Shown one piece after another: positions 3,725-24,540 of a stretch of DNA of 30,363 bases. Origin of the DNA: a virus. A program made the translations under genes and the position numbers. Position 1 is the first letter of the stretch. Each line of letters begins with the position of its first letter. The notes beneath the pieces are model-generated. The model worked only from the letters and a program-made list of their open reading frames with translations. It had not been told where the DNA came from and ran no database searches. The DNA lies in the IMG/VR virus record IMGVR_UViG_3300010148_000071, positions 1-30,363 of that record; one strand, given 5' to 3'.

Positions 3725-4197
3725 TAAATAAACAACAAATATTAAAAGTAATTAAAACGACTTTAAAAAAATTAGATGCTAAATATTATTCTGATCAAGC
3801 AGTTGATTTAATTTACAATACAGGTTTAGTTGAATCTAATTATCAATATTTAATGCAATTAGAAGATGGTCCAGCTAGAGGATTTTTTCAAATGGAACCT
3901 GCTACTGCAGTTGATATATGCAAAAATTATTTATGCTTTAGACCAAAACTATTAACAGAAATAGAAAGTATTTGTTTTTTAAATTCTTATATTTTAGTTG
4001 CAGCAAAATCAGAAGAATTAAAATTCTTATTAGCAACAAATGTAGCGTTACAAATTATTTTTTGTAGAATACATTACAGACGAGTGCCAAAACCTTTACC
4101 ATATACCCTAGAAGATCAAGCTGTATATTGGAAAGCATATTATAATAGCCATTTAGGGAAAGGCACTGTTGAAAAGTTTATAGAGATATGTAAATGA
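3721..4197 (+). CDS. Lysin: lytic transglycosylase / muramidase-like endolysin
   Basis: This encodes 158 residues. The motif GLVESNY (Glu38 is the likely catalytic acid) followed by ARGFFQMEPAT (about residues 52-62) is the E-S/G-x-Q-M-E-P pattern of phage peptidoglycan transglycosylase-like lysins, and YNSHLGKGT near the C-terminus fits the same phage group. It would cleave cell-wall glycan strands at the end of infection. There is no signal peptide, so export would depend on a holin; the small membrane proteins at 1970-2813 are candidates. The stop overlaps the next gene by 4 bases. Confidence 0.75.
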   Translation: MINKQQILKVIKTTLKKLDAKYYSDQAVDLIYNTGLVESNYQYLMQLEDGPARGFFQMEPATAVDICKNYLCFRPKLLTEIESICFLNSYILVAAKSEELKFLLATNVALQIIFCRIHYRRVPKPLPYTLEDQAVYWKAYYNSHLGKGTVEKFIEICK

Positions 4198-5246
4198 TAA
4201 TTAAAGAAAAAAATGAAAATTTATATGATAAAAACAAAAACATATTAAGTTGTGTTTATTGTAATTCTATGCAAATCCATAAAGATGGAAAAACTAAATA
4301 CGGAAAGCAAAGATATTATTGTTTAAGCTGTAAAAGGAGAAGTGTAAAAACAAACACTATTTATAATAAAGACTTTAACCAAGAAAAAAACCCTCCTAAT
4401 AAAGAAATGGATATTGAGGAGTTAATTAAATACAGAGTTAAAAAGTTTAAAGTAAAACAAAAAAGAGATTTTTATGAAAAATTAGTAAATATAAATATTA
4501 ATCTTGATGGTCCAATAGGAATTGCTCATTTTGGCGATCCTCACGTTGATGATGATGGTACAGATTTATCTGAAATATTTGCTATTACAAATTTAATTAA
4601 CAAAACCGAAGGAATGTTTGCTGGTAATTTAGGCGACATTCAAAATAACTGGATAGGCAGACTGGCTAGGTTATACGCTAATCAAACCACAACTGCGAAA
4701 GAATCTTGGTTATTATCAGAGCATTTTGTTAAAAGCTTAGAATGGCTTTATTTGGTAGGGGGAAATCACGATGTTTGGTCAGGAGATGGCGATCCTCTAG
4801 AATTTATAATGAGAAATAGTGAAACTGTTTATAGCAACCACGGTGTTAGAATAAATTTAAAATTTCCTAATAAAAACCAAGTTAGGATAAACGCTAGGCA
4901 TCAATTCAAAGGAAATTCAATGTGGAATACTGCTCACGCTATTAGTAGAGCAATTCAAATGGGTTGGCGTGATCATATTTTAACTGCAGGGCATATACAC
5001 GTTTCTGGATACCAAGTTTTAAAAGACCCTAGTTCAGGGTTAATTTCTCATGCGTTACAAGTAGCAAGTTTTAAAAGAATGGACGAATATGCAAATAAAA
5101 ACGGAATGGATGATAAAAATATATTTAATTGCCCTGTAACTATTATCGATCCTAAATATTCGGCTGATGATAATAGGTTAATTACAACAATTTTTGATCC
5201 ACATGAAGGTGCAGATTATTTAACATGGAAAAGATCACAGAAATAG
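4194..5246 (+). CDS. Zinc-ribbon calcineurin-like metallophosphoesterase
   Basis: This encodes 350 residues. Residues 20-46 form a C-x2-C...C-x2-C ribbon with GKQRYYCLSC, as in the zinc ribbon of IS1-type InsA transposases. A basic linker (about 75-100) leads to a calcineurin-like phosphoesterase domain with metal-ligand motifs GDPHVDD (114-120), GDIQNN (147-152), GGNHDVW (189-195) and GHIH (266-269). The substrate is unknown; family members cleave phosphomono- or diesters, including nucleic acids. A similar phosphoesterase is frequent in tailed phages near structural genes. The ribbon suggests it is brought to DNA or RNA. It sits between lysin and neck genes, which is an odd place for a nucleic acid enzyme. 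Confidence 0.85.
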   Translation: MIIKEKNENLYDKNKNILSCVYCNSMQIHKDGKTKYGKQRYYCLSCKRRSVKTNTIYNKDFNQEKNPPNKEMDIEELIKYRVKKFKVKQKRDFYEKLVNININLDGPIGIAHFGDPHVDDDGTDLSEIFAITNLINKTEGMFAGNLGDIQNNWIGRLARLYANQTTTAKESWLLSEHFVKSLEWLYLVGGNHDVWSGDGDPLEFIMRNSETVYSNHGVRINLKFPNKNQVRINARHQFKGNSMWNTAHAISRAIQMGWRDHILTAGHIHVSGYQVLKDPSSGLISHALQVASFKRMDEYANKNGMDDKNIFNCPVTIIDPKYSADDNRLITTIFDPHEGADYLTWKRSQK

Positions 5247-6866: not shown

Positions 6867-7046
6867 ATGAAGAATAAAAAAAAATACAAGGCAACTTCAA
6901 CGTTTAATGTAGATGCCTTTGATAATTACAAAGGGTTGGGCAACGACAATCATGCAAAGCTATGCAAAGGTAAAATTGTTGAGCTTGATTTTGAACCAAC
7001 TGAATTACTTAAAAATAAAATGCTTAAAACAGTAGGAGAAAAATAA
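6867..7046 (+). CDS. Small hypothetical protein, 59 aa
   Basis: TAAGGAATCTATA precedes ATG 6867, and the TAA stop overlaps the tail tube ATG. The product is basic at the N-terminus (MKNKKKYKA) and ends with a short helix (EPTELLKNKML). Its C-terminal half (LCKGKIVELDFEPTELLKNK) reads like a small tail accessory protein. The role is unknown, but its placement between terminator and tube suggests tail assembly. Confidence 0.6.
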   Translation: MKNKKKYKATSTFNVDAFDNYKGLGNDNHAKLCKGKIVELDFEPTELLKNKMLKTVGEK

Positions 7047-8059
7047 TGGCAACATATTCAGGAAATCAATTCCTTGTCTATATAGGTCAGCATGCAGCAA
7101 ATCAAGGTATCTTAACTCAAAACAGTGATAATGCTCTACATAGATGGAATTTAGAAACAGTAAATGATATAGACTTTAGTGCAGGAGTTACACAAGAGTT
7201 TATCCCAAGAACTGGTCAAAAAGTTTTTAGGGAAGAAGATTTATTCATAACTCAAAATGGCGGCTCTTATACAATGGCTTTTGATTACTTAGTGGATTCA
7301 GAAGAAATACTGCAATTATTACTAAGATCAGCAATGGAAGTAGATGGAACCACAGGGCTTTGTCATATGACTGGAAATCAAGGGCATTCTGCTCAATACG
7401 CTTATAACACTTCTGCTCCAGACTTTTCATTACAAGTTAGTATTGTAAATCCAGACTCTGATCAAACTCGATTATTGCACTCTGCAGTAGTTACAGAGCT
7501 TACTTTGTCAATGGACACTGGTACAAATGGTGGTAGGTTAAGAGCAAGTGGAACAATCTATTCTGGATATAGACCTACTGTTGGAACAAACGCAGTTTCT
7601 GATGGTTCTACAGCTTCAAATACAGATTACGCTTTTGGATTATTTGATTGTCACGCAGTTGAAATTGCTGGAACTCAAGTTACGTGTAAATCTTTTTCTG
7701 TAACTATTTCAAACCCAGCAGAAAGAGTTGGTTATCAAATTGTAAATAGTATAGATGGGGAACCAACTGATTACATAAGGAATCGAGCTGATGTCACTGG
7801 CTCTATAAATGTAAAAATGGATGATACTTCTGTAGCTCAATTACCATTTTATCTAGCTGGTACTTCAAAAGGTATTCTAGTTGGAGATGAAGGAACTTCA
7901 GGTGGTGGTAGTGCATCAGATATATTTATAGAAATACCAACTGCAAAATACACTGGACATAATGTTGATTTAGGTTCAGAAGGTGGTGTTTTTATTGAGT
8001 TACCATTTCAAGCAACTGCTACTGGAACAAATAAACTAATAACAGTTTTAGCAACTTAA
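7046..8059 (+). CDS. Major tail tube protein
   Basis: This encodes 337 residues, beta-rich, with an N-terminal MATYSGNQFLVYIGQ and a segment DIDFSAGVTQEFIPRTGQK. An immunoglobulin-like or domain-swapped C-terminus is suggested by T/S/G-rich strands. It sits immediately before the G/GT chaperone pair and tape measure, the defining position of the tail tube gene in long-tailed phages. The start is supported by GTAGGAGAAAA just upstream. Hexamers of this protein would stack to make the tail tube. No sheath gene is present, so the tail is non-contractile. Confidence 0.7.
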   Translation: MATYSGNQFLVYIGQHAANQGILTQNSDNALHRWNLETVNDIDFSAGVTQEFIPRTGQKVFREEDLFITQNGGSYTMAFDYLVDSEEILQLLLRSAMEVDGTTGLCHMTGNQGHSAQYAYNTSAPDFSLQVSIVNPDSDQTRLLHSAVVTELTLSMDTGTNGGRLRASGTIYSGYRPTVGTNAVSDGSTASNTDYAFGLFDCHAVEIAGTQVTCKSFSVTISNPAERVGYQIVNSIDGEPTDYIRNRADVTGSINVKMDDTSVAQLPFYLAGTSKGILVGDEGTSGGGSASDIFIEIPTAKYTGHNVDLGSEGGVFIELPFQATATGTNKLITVLAT

Positions 8060-8077: not shown

Positions 8078-8353
8078 ATGATAGTAAATACAAAGCATGG
8101 TGATTTTGAATGTAAAGATATTACAAGAAAAAAAAGGCGCAGTTTATATAGGAAAGTAAAAGAAGTATTTGCTGACCTAGAACAAACTAAAGTTCATGAT
8201 CTTGCTGATGAATTTGCATTAATCGCTTTTGGAACAGAAGAAAAAGCAGAGGAGAGATTAAAAGGATTATCTGCATTGGCTGAAGATGAAGTTTTAATGG
8301 AAATTATAAACTCTTATATGGGTTTTAATTCGGGAAACATAACTGGCGATTGA
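8078..8353 (+). CDS. Tail assembly chaperone G (short, unshifted product)
   Basis: This encodes 91 residues from ATG 8078 behind a strong GGGAGG. It is a helical, charged protein (DITRKKRRSLYRKVKEVFADLE; FGTEEKAEERLKGLSALAEDE). It lies between tail tube and tape measure, where lambda gpG-like chaperones lie. Near its 3' end is the heptamer G GGA AAC in the correct phase (8332-8338) for a -1 shift into the next open frame. As in lambda, the short protein would coat the tape measure while the longer G-T fusion recruits tube subunits. The stop is TGA at 8351-8353. Confidence 0.75.
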   Translation: MIVNTKHGDFECKDITRKKRRSLYRKVKEVFADLEQTKVHDLADEFALIAFGTEEKAEERLKGLSALAEDEVLMEIINSYMGFNSGNITGD

Positions 8354-8391
8354 GAACAGCAGTCTGGTTCTCCCAATATGGTCTGCCAGAC
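8332..8391 (+). promoter_or_regulatory. Programmed -1 ribosomal frameshift site with possible pseudoknot
   Basis: The heptamer GGGAAAC (8332-8338) fits X XXY YYZ in the zero frame (GGA AAC) of the upstream gene; lambda G/GT uses GGGAAAG. Thirteen bases downstream, GAGAAC (8352-8357) pairs with GTTCTC (8367-8372). Five bases of the 9-base loop, GTCTG (8362-8366), can pair with CAGAC (8387-8391), giving an H-type pseudoknot with loops of 4 and 14 bases. A further ATT/AAT extension (8349-8351 with 8375-8377) would shorten the spacer to 10 bases. The pairing is seen in sequence; function is inferred. Confidence 0.75.
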
Positions 8392-8745
8392 GTTGAGTAT
8401 TTCCTCCCATACAAAGCTCGGTCGCCAGTATTATTAAGGGTTTTAACTTATCAAAATAAAGGAGATTTATTTGATGAAATTGATAGATTACTTAAAGATA
8501 AAGGCACTCACAAATTTGGAGTTGGTCAAAGTCTTTTTTATCAATTGCCCTTATTTTGTAATCCTAGTGTACTTATCCCTAATTGGTGTTGGGAAATGAT
8601 AAACGATTATCAAAGCGTAAAAAAGTTTCATATTCCTATCGCTAAGAGCTTAGATTCTGCTAATGCTTGGCAACTTGATTGCTTTAATATAATAGATCAA
8701 GAAATAACAAGAATTAAAAACCACGAGAGAATAAAAAATGGCTAA
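8350..8745 (+). CDS. Tail assembly chaperone T portion, made as a G-T -1 frameshift fusion
   Basis: This frame is -1 relative to the upstream gene and is open from 8329. The only independent start would be TTG 8350, overlapping the upstream stop with no ribosome site. Slippage at 8332-8338 would resume at 8338 (HNWRLRTAVWFSQYGLP...) and give a fusion of about 222 residues ending at 8745, where it overlaps the tape measure start. It contains several aromatic residues and cysteines and is likely the tube-binding T domain. The fusion prediction rests on frame, slippery site and gene order. Confidence 0.75.
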   Translation: MRTAVWFSQYGLPDVEYFLPYKARSPVLLRVLTYQNKGDLFDEIDRLLKDKGTHKFGVGQSLFYQLPLFCNPSVLIPNWCWEMINDYQSVKKFHIPIAKSLDSANAWQLDCFNIIDQEITRIKNHERIKNG

Positions 8746-10837
8746 AAATGTAGTTTTAAAAATATCTCAAAAAGGTGCTAAGAAAACAACAACTGCTCTT
8801 AAAAATGTAGGTGGAGCATTAACAAGTATTGGAACAAAAGCTGGAATTGTTACGGCTGGTTTTGGAATTTTATCTGTTAAATTAGCTGGAGACTTTCAAA
8901 AGAGCCTTCTAGAGGTTAGTACATTATTAGATAAAACGAACAAAAGAACTCTACCAGAAATGAGCAGAGAGCTAAGAAATGTTGCATCTGCTAGTGGTTT
9001 AGCTCTTAGTTCTATCAGTAAAGCCAAATATGATATTGTTTCAGCTGGATTTTCTAAAGCATCGGATTCAGCTAAAGTTTTAAATGCTTCTTCTAAATTA
9101 GCAGTTGGTGGAGTTACCAGTGCAGCAGAAGCTGCAGACCTTCTTACAACTGCATTAAACGCTTATGGAAAATCAGCAGAAGAAGTTGACGCAGTTTCAA
9201 ATACTTTATTCACAACTGTTAGGCTAGGTAAAACTACAATGGGCGAACTTGCTGGAAGTTTAGGCAGGGTGCTTCCTTTTGCTAAGTCTATGAATTTAAG
9301 TTTAGATGACGTTGGTGCATCAATGGCAACTCTTACTGCTGCAGGTATAAATACAGCAGAAGCAACAACAGCTCTTACTAGTGCAATTACATCTTTATCT
9401 GCTCCTGGAGATGCAGCAAAAGAAGCTATGGAATTGGCTGGGGTTGAAGTAAAAAAGTTTGATGATGGAACTGTCGATCTTGTCAAAACAATAGAACAAT
9501 TCCAAGGACTAGATCAAGAAACAATTAAAAAGTTTATTCCTAATATTCGTGCTATTGCAGCGATACAGACAATGGCTAATAATTTTGGAACTTTAGAAAA
9601 TAACGTTGTAGAGTTTAACAGAGCTGCACAAGAATCAAACGCAACTGAAATCGCTTTTAATAAAATGACAAGTGCTTTTAATACTCAATTTGCTATGTTG
9701 AGAAATAATTTTCAAGGTATAATGATTGAAATTGGCAATGTTATTATAGAAACAATACAACCTTCTATCGAACAAGCCAATAAAGAATTTGAAAAGTTAG
9801 GAGATATAGGTTGGGATAATATAGGAAAAGCAATACAAGAAAGACTCCCAGCAATAGCAGTTCTTTTACAAGAAACAATGCGAATTGCTTTTGAACATAT
9901 TGAAGGCAGAGCTAGTATTATGGGACTAACAATTAAAGAGCATATAAAAGATGCGATTCCTTTTGTTGAAGGAGATTTTGAATCATTAAAGCAAATGAGT
10001 GACGATTTAACAAAAAAAACTAGCGAAAATACAGCAGAACTAAAAGAGCTATATACTAAAGCCTATAATGGTATTTTAGAAAAAGCTCAAGAAAATCGCG
10101 ATGCTCAAGTAGAAGTAAACAAACAACTCTTAGAGCAACAAAATGCAGATTTAGAAGAAAATGAAGAGAAGAAAAAAGAAATTGAAGATGCTTCAAAAAA
10201 TAAAAAAGCTGAAGATGTTGCAGAAGCAATAAAATTTATATCTATGGAACAATTTGAAAGAAATAAAGGCATTGCATTAATAAATAAAGAAGCAGAAGAG
10301 ATGAAACGTGCTGGAGTTTCAGAGATTGATGTAAAAACATTTATTGCTAAGAAAACTGTAGACCTAGAAAGAGTAAAAAGAGCTGCACAAGCATCAACTG
10401 TTTCTTCATTAGTTGGAGCTTTAGGACAAGCAAATACTGCATTTAAAGGCTCTGCGCTAGTATCAAAAAGACTTGCTCAAGTACAAGCAGTAATAGATAC
10501 TTATGCTGGAGCAAATAAAGCATTAGCTGCATCGCCACCACCTTTTAATTTTGTTGCTGCAGCTGCAGTAGTTGCTGCAGGACTTACGAATGTTGCCACA
10601 ATAGAATCTCAAAACTTTGCTTCTGGTGGTATTGTTCAAGGCGCAGGAAATCAAGATACTGTCCCAGCAATGTTAACTCCAGGTGAGTTAATTCTTAATC
10701 AAGCACAACAAGAAAATCTAGCAGGTAATTCGGGAGGTGCAATTACGCTTAATATTTCTGCTCCGTTAGTAGATGAAACAATACTAGATACAATTATACC
10801 GGCTATTGAAAAAGCTAAATCAATGAATATAGCATAA
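8738..10837 (+). CDS. Tail tape measure protein
   Basis: This encodes 699 residues. The N-terminal third has the TP901-type tape measure core: residues ~60-230 alternate A/S/G/L-rich helices (DLLTTALNAYGKSAEEVDAV; TTMGELAGSLGRVLPFAKSM). Hydrophobic segments lie at about 28-48 and 595-615 (FNFVAAAAVVAAGL). A charged coiled coil occupies about 430-500. The C-terminus has the recurrent FASGGIVQGAG...VPAMLTPGELILN signature of phage tape measures. It would set tail length and help DNA entry. At 699 residues it predicts a tail of about 100 nm by the usual 1.5 Å per residue rule (inference). It overlaps the chaperone upstream by 8 bases. Confidence 0.9.
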   Translation: MAKNVVLKISQKGAKKTTTALKNVGGALTSIGTKAGIVTAGFGILSVKLAGDFQKSLLEVSTLLDKTNKRTLPEMSRELRNVASASGLALSSISKAKYDIVSAGFSKASDSAKVLNASSKLAVGGVTSAAEAADLLTTALNAYGKSAEEVDAVSNTLFTTVRLGKTTMGELAGSLGRVLPFAKSMNLSLDDVGASMATLTAAGINTAEATTALTSAITSLSAPGDAAKEAMELAGVEVKKFDDGTVDLVKTIEQFQGLDQETIKKFIPNIRAIAAIQTMANNFGTLENNVVEFNRAAQESNATEIAFNKMTSAFNTQFAMLRNNFQGIMIEIGNVIIETIQPSIEQANKEFEKLGDIGWDNIGKAIQERLPAIAVLLQETMRIAFEHIEGRASIMGLTIKEHIKDAIPFVEGDFESLKQMSDDLTKKTSENTAELKELYTKAYNGILEKAQENRDAQVEVNKQLLEQQNADLEENEEKKKEIEDASKNKKAEDVAEAIKFISMEQFERNKGIALINKEAEEMKRAGVSEIDVKTFIAKKTVDLERVKRAAQASTVSSLVGALGQANTAFKGSALVSKRLAQVQAVIDTYAGANKALAASPPPFNFVAAAAVVAAGLTNVATIESQNFASGGIVQGAGNQDTVPAMLTPGELILNQAQQENLAGNSGGAITLNISAPLVDETILDTIIPAIEKAKSMNIA

Positions 10838-19650: not shown

Positions 19651-20074
19651 AACTAAAAAAGTAAAAACGCCTGAAAGAAACGGTAAAAATGCAGGTATTG
19701 ATTTTTTTATACCAAGTAATTTTAAAGATACTATTTTAAAACCAAATAAATCAATTGTAATTGAGTCTGGAATTAAAGTTAGATTGCCCGATAATTATTG
19801 TTTAATAGCTTTTAATAAGAGTAGTATAAGTTTAAAAGACATTATTACTGGAGCTTGTTTAATAGATGAAAATTATACTGGTCAAATACATTTTAATTTA
19901 ATAAATGTTGGAACAAATTTTTTTGAATTAAAAGCAAATCAAAAAATTGCACAATTTGTTTTAATAAAACAAAATTATTATGCGATTAAAGAATGTTTTA
20001 ATGAACAGGAATTATATAAAAACTTTAATATAAAAGAAAGGGGAGAAAATGGATTTGGATCAACAAATAAATAA
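19637..20074 (+). CDS. dut: dUTPase (deoxyuridine 5'-triphosphate nucleotidohydrolase)
   Basis: This encodes 145 residues. All five trimeric dUTPase motifs are present in order: AGIDFF (motif 1), NKSSIS (2), GACLIDENYTGQI (3, with catalytic Asp and stacking Tyr), KIAQFVLI (4) and RGENGFGSTNK (5). It converts dUTP to dUMP and diphosphate, keeping uracil out of DNA and supplying substrate to the adjacent ThyX. Motif 2 has NKSS where GRSS is usual. It overlaps the ThyX gene by 26 bases. Confidence 0.92.
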   Translation: MKIFKTKKVKTPERNGKNAGIDFFIPSNFKDTILKPNKSIVIESGIKVRLPDNYCLIAFNKSSISLKDIITGACLIDENYTGQIHFNLINVGTNFFELKANQKIAQFVLIKQNYYAIKECFNEQELYKNFNIKERGENGFGSTNK

Positions 20075-20705
20075 AAATGTAGTTACAATAAAAGTAAAAT
20101 TATCATCGTATAGCATAGATCCAATAAAATCTATGTGGTCTGCTGCTAGAAATTGCTATTATAGAGGAGATTTTTGTGATTTAGAAAAAACATATATTCA
20201 CGAAAAAGCAGTTGATTTATTAAAAAGAATAACGAAAAGAGGCCATTTATCAATTTTAGAGCAATGTTTTTTTCAATTTCAAATTTCAGGCATTAGTAGA
20301 AGTTGTTTAGCTCAATTTACCAGGCATAGAGTAGGATGGACATTTGCTGTACAATCTCAACATTATCAAAAACATGATGATTTTACTTACAAAGATTTAG
20401 AAAAATATATTGATAATAATCATAAAAAAGAATATTATGATTTAATGGAGCAAATTAATAAATTTTATAAAAAAAGTTTTGAAAATGAAATTCCTAGATA
20501 TATAGCACGGGAAGTATTACCAAATTCAACAAGTGTTCATTTAGTAGCAGCTGCTAATTTATCTTCTTTAAAACATTTCTGGGCGTTAAGAATAGCAAAA
20601 GGTAATACACCTGAAATAAGAAAACTGGCTTTTATGATGTATAACGCAGTGATTAATAAATTCCCAGACATTTCTAAAATTTTGCAAACTAACTACGAGG
20701 TATAA
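20049..20705 (+). CDS. thyX: Flavin-dependent thymidylate synthase ThyX
   Basis: This encodes 218 residues, starting at ATG 20049 behind AAGGGGAG. RHRVGWTFAVQSQHY (Arg92-His93-Arg94, Ser103) matches the ThyX signature RHR-x7-8-S. GHLSILEQ (65-72) and the C-terminal AREVLPNST...HFWALR...EIRKLA region also fit. It makes dTMP from dUMP using FAD and methylenetetrahydrofolate. Its place between dUTPase and dCMP deaminase makes a complete route to dTMP. Family and residues are clear. Confidence 0.93.
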   Translation: MDLDQQINKNVVTIKVKLSSYSIDPIKSMWSAARNCYYRGDFCDLEKTYIHEKAVDLLKRITKRGHLSILEQCFFQFQISGISRSCLAQFTRHRVGWTFAVQSQHYQKHDDFTYKDLEKYIDNNHKKEYYDLMEQINKFYKKSFENEIPRYIAREVLPNSTSVHLVAAANLSSLKHFWALRIAKGNTPEIRKLAFMMYNAVINKFPDISKILQTNYEV

Positions 20706-23278: not shown

Positions 23279-23366
23279 AACAATTAAAATTATAAAAGTA
23301 AAAGATCAATATTGGACTTATACAACTTTATATAAAAATGATAAAATGGTCATTAAATACAACTAG
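23268..23366 (+). CDS. Possible tiny gene, 32 aa
   Basis: ATG 23268 lies inside the end of the small terminase candidate and the stop lies inside the large terminase start. The product MKNKTIKIIKVKDQYWTYTT is basic and beta-like. It would fill the 59-base gap and could couple the two genes. There is no ribosome site, so confidence is low. Confidence 0.3.
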   Translation: MKNKTIKIIKVKDQYWTYTTLYKNDKMVIKYN

Positions 23367-24540
23367 AAAAGAAATATTACACAACCCCGCTAGATTTAAA
23401 GTTATTGTTGCTGGTCGCAGATGGGGTAAAACAATATTGAGTTTAATGTATTTATTAAAAGATGCATTTAACCCTGGAGAGCGCAGATGGTTTATCACGC
23501 CAACATATAGGCAAGGAAAAATGATTGTGTTTCCAATATTAAGACAAATGTTTGCTGGATTTAAAGGTGCTAAATTAAACGAATCTGAAATGCTAGTATC
23601 TTTTGACAATGGCGCAGAATTAAGCGTAAAAGGAGCAGATAACGAACATAATCTTAGAGGTGTTGAACTAACTAAATGTGTAATGGATGAAATGGCTTAT
23701 ATCAAACCACACGTATGGGAAGAAATTATTTATCCTATGTTAGCAACCACTCAAGGAGAAGTTTTATTTATTGGGACACCAAGTGGATATGATATTATGT
23801 ATGACCTGTATTCAAAAGGGCAAGGTGAAAAAGATTGGCAAAGCTGGAAATTTACTACAGTTGAAGGTGGCTTTGTACCATTAGAAGAAATAGAAAGGGC
23901 TAAAAAAACTATGGACGAAGTCATATTTAGGCAAGAGTTTGAGGCTTCTTTTGAAACAACTGGTAATAGGGCTGCATATAATTTTGATCGCGATGTTAAT
24001 TGTTTTAAGGCTAAAGAACTTTCTAATAACTTATGGTGGGGAGTTGATTTTAATGTGGACTTTATGACTGCAGTTTTAGCCTGTGAATATACAGATGGAA
24101 CTATACACTTTTTTGATGAGCTTAGATTAAAAAATAGCAACACTGAAGAGTTATCTATTAAAATGAAAAAGGTTGCTCCAAATATCGAGTGTTATCCAGA
24201 CCCTGCAGGTAAAGCTAGAAGCACCACCAGTAGGAGGTCTGATCATCAAATATTAAGAGACCACGGGTTTTTAATACGCGCTAAAAAATCGCACCCAAGT
24301 CACATAGATAGATTAAACGCTTTAAATAGAAAATTAAAAGATGCAGAAGGTAAAGTTGGAATGACCATTGATCCTTCTTGCACTTATTTAATAAAAGATT
24401 TAGAACAATGCCAAAGAGATAAATATGGAAAGCTAGATAAAAAAGATATGCAATTAACACACGCACTTGACGCATGTTCTTATGCTATTAGCCATAAATT
24501 TCCTATTCGTAGAATGGTTGGCTCAACAATAAACTGGTAG
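23338..24540 (+). CDS. terL: Terminase large subunit (packaging ATPase/nuclease)
   Basis: This encodes 400 residues. Walker A is AGRRWGKT (25-32), Walker B is CVMDEMAY (Asp117, Glu118), and the coupling motif region is FIGTPSG (about 143-149). The RNase H-like nuclease begins at WWGVDFNVDF (Asp237, Asp241) with later acidic residues at YPDPAG and ALDACSYA. It pumps DNA into the procapsid through the portal and cuts the concatemer. At 400 residues it is short but complete, with no insertion. No clear ribosome site precedes ATG 23338, so translation may be coupled from upstream. Confidence 0.93.
   Translation: MIKWSLNTTRKEILHNPARFKVIVAGRRWGKTILSLMYLLKDAFNPGERRWFITPTYRQGKMIVFPILRQMFAGFKGAKLNESEMLVSFDNGAELSVKGADNEHNLRGVELTKCVMDEMAYIKPHVWEEIIYPMLATTQGEVLFIGTPSGYDIMYDLYSKGQGEKDWQSWKFTTVEGGFVPLEEIERAKKTMDEVIFRQEFEASFETTGNRAAYNFDRDVNCFKAKELSNNLWWGVDFNVDFMTAVLACEYTDGTIHFFDELRLKNSNTEELSIKMKKVAPNIECYPDPAGKARSTTSRRSDHQILRDHGFLIRAKKSHPSHIDRLNALNRKLKDAEGKVGMTIDPSCTYLIKDLEQCQRDKYGKLDKKDMQLTHALDACSYAISHKFPIRRMVGSTINW

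Follow-up and report, generated by a model that had tools for sequence, protein, structure and literature searches.

A conserved long-range RNA stem at a probable −1 frameshift site between tail-chaperone-like genes of uncultured phages

The DNA analysed here, referred to throughout as the window, is a stretch of 30,363 bases covering positions 1–30,363 of the IMG/VR virus record IMGVR_UViG_3300010148_000071. It contains a pair of overlapping genes on the plus strand that is flanked, according to protein family matches, by a tail tube gene (7046–8059, Phage_tube_2) and a tape measure gene (8738–10837, PhageMin_Tail). This order, tail tube – G – T – tape measure, is that of phage lambda, and the neighbourhood is the one that characterises G/GT gene pairs. 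No relatives of G or T were found among the 50,697 records of cultured phages or in bacterial and archaeal genomes, and the AT-rich, uncultured metagenome contigs give the impression that the source phages are a family of uncultured marine tailed phages. Elsewhere the window encodes a phosphoesterase-like protein (4194–5246), matched in PHROG to a DNA repair exonuclease, whose N-terminal zinc ribbon is similar to the InsA transposase domain (Pfam E 3e-4, which falls short of the curated threshold). It also encodes a ThyX thymidylate synthase (20049–20705; PF02511, E 2e-41), which lies in a region of mostly small open reading frames that separates the tail genes from the large terminase gene (23338–24540).

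The upstream member of the pair is a G-like gene (8078–8353, plus strand), an open reading frame whose 0-frame product of 91 amino acids is a predicted tail assembly chaperone. The downstream member is a T-like open frame in the −1 register on the same strand (8329–8745), which we propose is expressed as a G-T fusion. Close to the end of G lies the heptamer G_GGA_AAC (8332–8338, plus strand), which is read as TCG GGA AAC in the G frame and is therefore in the exact X_XXY_YYZ phase for tandem slippage. The −1 reading frame runs open from 8329 to a stop at 8745, so that slippage at the heptamer would generate a fusion of 222 amino acids. A preliminary description of this DNA had proposed a −1 frameshift between tail-chaperone-like genes on the grounds of the heptamer phase, the open −1 frame with its fusion of about 222 residues and the lack of a ribosome site for the downstream frame; all three observations were borne out, and the proposal itself is strongly supported by the comparative data below. 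The window also contains a second in-phase heptamer, GGGTTTT (8320–8326), which is useless there because the −1 frame has a TAA stop at 8326–8328. Four related loci (L054, L066, L082 and L083) have a longer open −1 frame, with GGGTTTA at the corresponding place.

The only start codon near the beginning of the −1 frame is a TTG at 8350, which overlaps the G stop codon (TTGA) in the window and in many relatives, and the T-like frame might thus be translated separately through termination and reinitiation. However, the TTG is not preceded by a Shine-Dalgarno sequence in the window, neither a start codon nor a Shine-Dalgarno sequence is conserved for this frame across the relatives, and seven loci (L009, L020, L023, L029 and L105–L107) have no ATG, GTG or TTG there at all. 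Reinitiation would also leave unexplained why an in-phase heptamer is conserved while its letters change, and why the spacing to the core of the stem described below is fixed at 12 nt. We therefore regard reinitiation as very improbable, and independent initiation of T as unlikely.

AlphaFold gives a confident model for G, consisting of a beta hairpin and four helices (pLDDT 90.7), and a confident fold is likewise predicted for the residues of the T-like frame from 8332 on (pLDDT 92.3). Neither window protein has a significant Pfam or PHROG match to a named chaperone family, which we count against the reading given below; among 43 homologues a single one reaches Phage_TAC_7, at E 0.07. Comparison of the folds with those of named chaperones gives weak matches (E about 1 or worse), matches to the Protein Data Bank are too weak to name a fold for either protein, and the closest viral fold entries are unnamed. 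The predicted G fold (8078–8350) aligns to 5ir0, which is ORF19 of a Vibrio cholerae PICI-like element, with Z 6.6 over 83 residues, a value below the trusted level for a helical protein.

An in-phase heptamer would occur by chance in about 10% of overlaps of this length, so the significance of the site has to come from its conservation, and relatives are needed to judge it. Using the T protein and the proteins of the tail tube and tape measure genes as queries against viral contigs, we obtained 79 distinct junction regions, and G homologues lie at the corresponding place in related loci. The expectation of the preliminary description that homologues would retain the heptamer held, as a canonical heptamer is present at the junction in 74 of the 79 distinct loci. 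The types differ by clade (GGGAAAC, CCCTTTA, CCCAAAT, CCCAAAA, AAAAAAA and AAAAAAG), meaning that the letters vary among relatives while the X_XXY_YYZ pattern is maintained. These types cluster on the tree, where the clade of the window, which has moderate support, appears to have switched heptamer more than once. The remaining five loci are L105–L107, which have CCCTTCT, L036, a weak and doubtful homologue, and L126, which is cut by the end of its contig. The A-runs of some relatives (AAAAAAA) are sites at which RNA polymerase can slip, and the shift could accordingly be transcriptional, or a mixture of transcriptional and ribosomal slippage. In the window and in most members of its clade, however, the heptamer is GGGAAAC or CCCTTTA, neither of which is a homopolymer, and the conserved RNA stem lies downstream at a spacing typical of ribosomal shifts, as would suit a translating ribosome. 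Transcriptional slippage is in our view the least probable of the explanations considered.

Downstream of the heptamer the RNA can form a long-range outer stem of 13 base pairs between the plus-strand arms ACTGGCGATTGAG (8342–8354) and CTCGGTCGCCAGT (8417–8429). The 62-nt loop of this stem encloses an inner hairpin in which GTCTGGT (8362–8368) pairs with GCCAGAC (8385–8391), both on the plus strand, and the stop codon of G (TGA, 8351–8353) lies inside the 5′ arm of the outer stem. This stem is absent from the preliminary description, though it is far stronger than the pseudoknot proposed there. The window strand from 8332 folds with a minimum free energy of −39.3 kcal/mol (z −3.75 against dinucleotide shuffles). 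When the downstream codons were recoded 2000 times using the codon usage of the window itself, no recoding reached the window energy (z −5.8) and only one formed all 13 outer-stem pairs. The 3′ arm is made of codons that are locally rare, with CGG accounting for 0.9% of Arg and TCG for 5.3% of Ser codons in the window. The window fold also includes a predicted third arm, which would make a three-way junction. The element has no match in Rfam, even at E values up to 1.

We compared the structure across an alignment of 47 sequences. The outer stem is retained in almost all relatives. In this alignment 87.6% of outer-stem cells are paired, and the whole structure is 85% paired compared with 31–44% for slid versions. 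The conserved core of the outer stem begins 6 nt after the heptamer in all 47 sequences; two core pairs are G-C throughout, the one after them reads C-G in 36 sequences but G-C in 11, and other pairs alternate between U-G, U-A and C-G. Parsimony on one quick tree gives approximate counts of compensatory double-change events, seven for the outer stem and five for the inner hairpin. The clearest single fact for the stem is provided by the serine codon that precedes proline in the 3′ arm. It is TCG in 36 of 36 loci with a 5′ arm CGA or CGG and TCC in 8 of 8 loci with GGA or GGG, a choice that is synonymous in T; over pooled genes these codons make up 1.3% and 4.1% of Ser codons respectively. All 70 distinct loci fold below their codon-matched mean energy (mean z −3.0), 58 of them below −2. 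The inner hairpin, with 80% of its cells paired and compensatory changes at the third pair, is more weakly conserved than the outer stem. In the relatives 48% of third-arm cells are paired, which does not amount to a conserved three-way junction.

The preliminary description had attributed stimulation to an H-type pseudoknot, with stem 1 formed by 8352–8357 (plus strand) and 8367–8372 and stem 2 by 8362–8366 and 8387–8391. All 11 pairs are present in the window, but the conserved role does not stand: stem 1 has its six pairs in 13 of the 47 sequences and both stems are complete in only 4. The pseudoknot fails the covariation test that the description had itself proposed; 63.8% of stem 1 cells are paired and each of the two loop-closing pairs of this stem is broken in 33 of 47. 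Stem 1 shares three bases (8352–8354) with the outer stem, meaning that the two compete, and its energy alone is −5.8 kcal/mol compared with −29.7 kcal/mol for the outer stem with the inner hairpin. The pairing of stem 2 is real, but it is part of the ordinary hairpin nested in the outer stem, and its 3′ side falls within the 3′ arm of that hairpin. Stem 1 does start 13 nt after the heptamer, a spacer that the description had found unusually long, but the anomaly vanishes once the core of the outer stem, at 6 nt, is taken as the stimulator. H-type layouts of such size arise by chance at 21.5% of random window sites if G-U pairs are allowed and at 1.4% with Watson-Crick pairs only. We also looked for helices in which the inner-hairpin loop would pair with other parts of the element to form a crossing; none outranked the outer stem with the inner hairpin, in a set partly chosen by the stem pattern and therefore biased upward for the outer stem, and the next-best helix overlaps stem 1. 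The pseudoknot could in principle form within a shortened outer stem; conservation (4 of 47) and energy led us to reject it as the conserved stimulator, and we give it very little credence.

The link between stem and heptamer was also seen when 2.9 million viral contigs were searched with a pattern that described just the outer stem and left out the heptamer. The search matched 66 contigs, 59 of them in a G/GT context, and in all 59 a heptamer lies exactly 12 nt upstream of the matched stem. Of these matches 22 are on contigs that had not been used previously, adding the heptamer types GGGAAAT and GGGAAAA, while the other seven stem matches have unrelated contexts and no heptamer at that place. 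In eight loci (L145, L151, L174, L183, L189, L193, L194 and L198) the outer-stem arms are nearly self-symmetric, and the pattern matches both strands.

A second group of loci (L108–L140), with T proteins approximately 40% identical, uses the heptamers AAAAAAA or CCCAAAA. Its outer stem, AGGACTTTGT/ACAAAGTCCT, starts 7 nt after the heptamer and has the same layout with unrelated sequence, and an inner hairpin of 12 bp occupies the same place. An unrelated stem sequence at the same place indicates that the layout persists while the sequence does not. Covariation within this group is uninformative because its stem hardly varies; synonymous-site identity is 0.84–0.93 over codons 1–32, which span the element, and mostly 0.5–0.8 downstream, with some higher patches.

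Several loci depart from the common arrangement. L105–L107 keep the stem, TGGGGACTGAG/CTCAGTCCCCA, with CCCTTCT at the shift place (L105:1492-1498, L106:1489-1495 and L107:1489-1495), where a non-standard slip of the P-site codon from CCU to CCC may occur. Two members of the AAAAAAG clade (L011:4804-4918 and L013:1107-1215) have a 9-bp stem, GGGTGGGGC/GCCCCACCC, whose start lies 38 nt downstream of the heptamer, too great a distance for a classical stimulator; in L014 a related stem follows the heptamer at 12 nt, and L012 shows no clear outer stem. Across this clade the 3′ arm is fixed at Ser-Pro codons and the 5′ arm moves. We count the CCCTTCT sites of L105–L107, the 38-nt distance in L011 and L013, the lack of a clear stem in L012 and the weaker inner hairpin against the reading given below.

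Judged from sequence, we put at roughly 0.9 the probability that this is a programmed −1 frameshift signal with a stem stimulator, yielding a minor G-T tail-chaperone fusion. The phase of the heptamer, the conservation of the overlapping frames and the conserved, covarying stem are direct observations, and from them we infer the frameshifting itself and its efficiency, the pausing role of the stem and the function of the proteins. A ribosome holding GGA in its P site and AAC in its A site would meet the long-range stem enclosing the inner hairpin, which would slow it at the heptamer, and some tRNA pairs would then re-pair on GGG AAA. Very probably the ribosome thus slips back by one base, aided by the stem, to make a longer tail-building protein. 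Translation would continue in the −1 register beyond the stop codon of G, which lies inside the stem, and produce the 222-residue fusion, while unshifted ribosomes would stop at 8351–8353 and release the 91-residue G protein. By analogy with lambda, the fusion may recruit tail tube subunits to the tape measure. Stimulators generally start 5–8 nt after the slippery site (PMC4066793), a range that includes the 6-nt core spacing found here. G_GGA_AAC is a low-efficiency motif in Escherichia coli, likely used by IS elements (PMC4066793); this low efficiency counts against the frameshift reading, and it would also explain the need for a strong stimulator.

The frameshift is a further case of the known G/GT kind, and what looks new for it is the long-range stimulator. 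G/GT frameshifts are among the commonest recoding events known. The literature surveyed, which was covered in part, contained no description of such an element in tail genes and no phage tail-chaperone frameshift with a covariation-supported RNA stimulator. We think it likely that a long-range stem of about 10–14 bp with an inner hairpin represents an undescribed class of stimulator, one that is ancient and conserved in the tail-chaperone frameshift of a large group of uncultured phages, and that its layout has been kept while its sequence and even the heptamer have been replaced. The two groups, the several heptamers and the codon evidence together offer a natural series on the matching of a weak slippery site, G_GGA_AAC, to a strong stimulator, and on how the ratio of fusion to chaperone stays right. 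The stem could also be used as an RNA signature with which to search unannotated viral contigs for tail chaperones.

Among known systems the haloarchaeal virus HCTV-1 has the same heptamer, G_GGA_AAC, as its reported G-T shift site, but its host is archaeal and no such stem is described in the consulted part of the source (PMC5009743). H-type pseudoknots such as that of IS3 are likewise 3′ stimulators of −1 frameshifting within the mRNA, whereas we found no conserved crossing pairs in the window element. The three-way-junction stimulator of the bacterial element IS911 (Rettberg 1999, cited in PMC5009743 and PMC4066793) resembles the window element in layout. Both have a closing stem just after the slippery site that encloses further hairpin structure, but the window element has one conserved inner hairpin only, its third arm being 48% paired, has no clear upstream Shine-Dalgarno sequence, and lies in a phage tail gene rather than a transposase gene. 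The tail assembly chaperone frameshift of lambda G/GT (Levin 1993; Xu 2004, as cited in PMC5009743) remains the appropriate precedent, as the preliminary description had suggested, given the gene order and the conserved in-phase heptamer. In lambda a minor G-T fusion arises from −1 slippage close to the end of G, and the same is proposed here for the window. The heptamer of lambda, G_GGA_AAG, is one base apart from the G_GGA_AAC of the window. In contrast to lambda G/GT, no relation of the window proteins to named chaperone families could be detected in sequence, and the window carries a strong, conserved long-range stem downstream.
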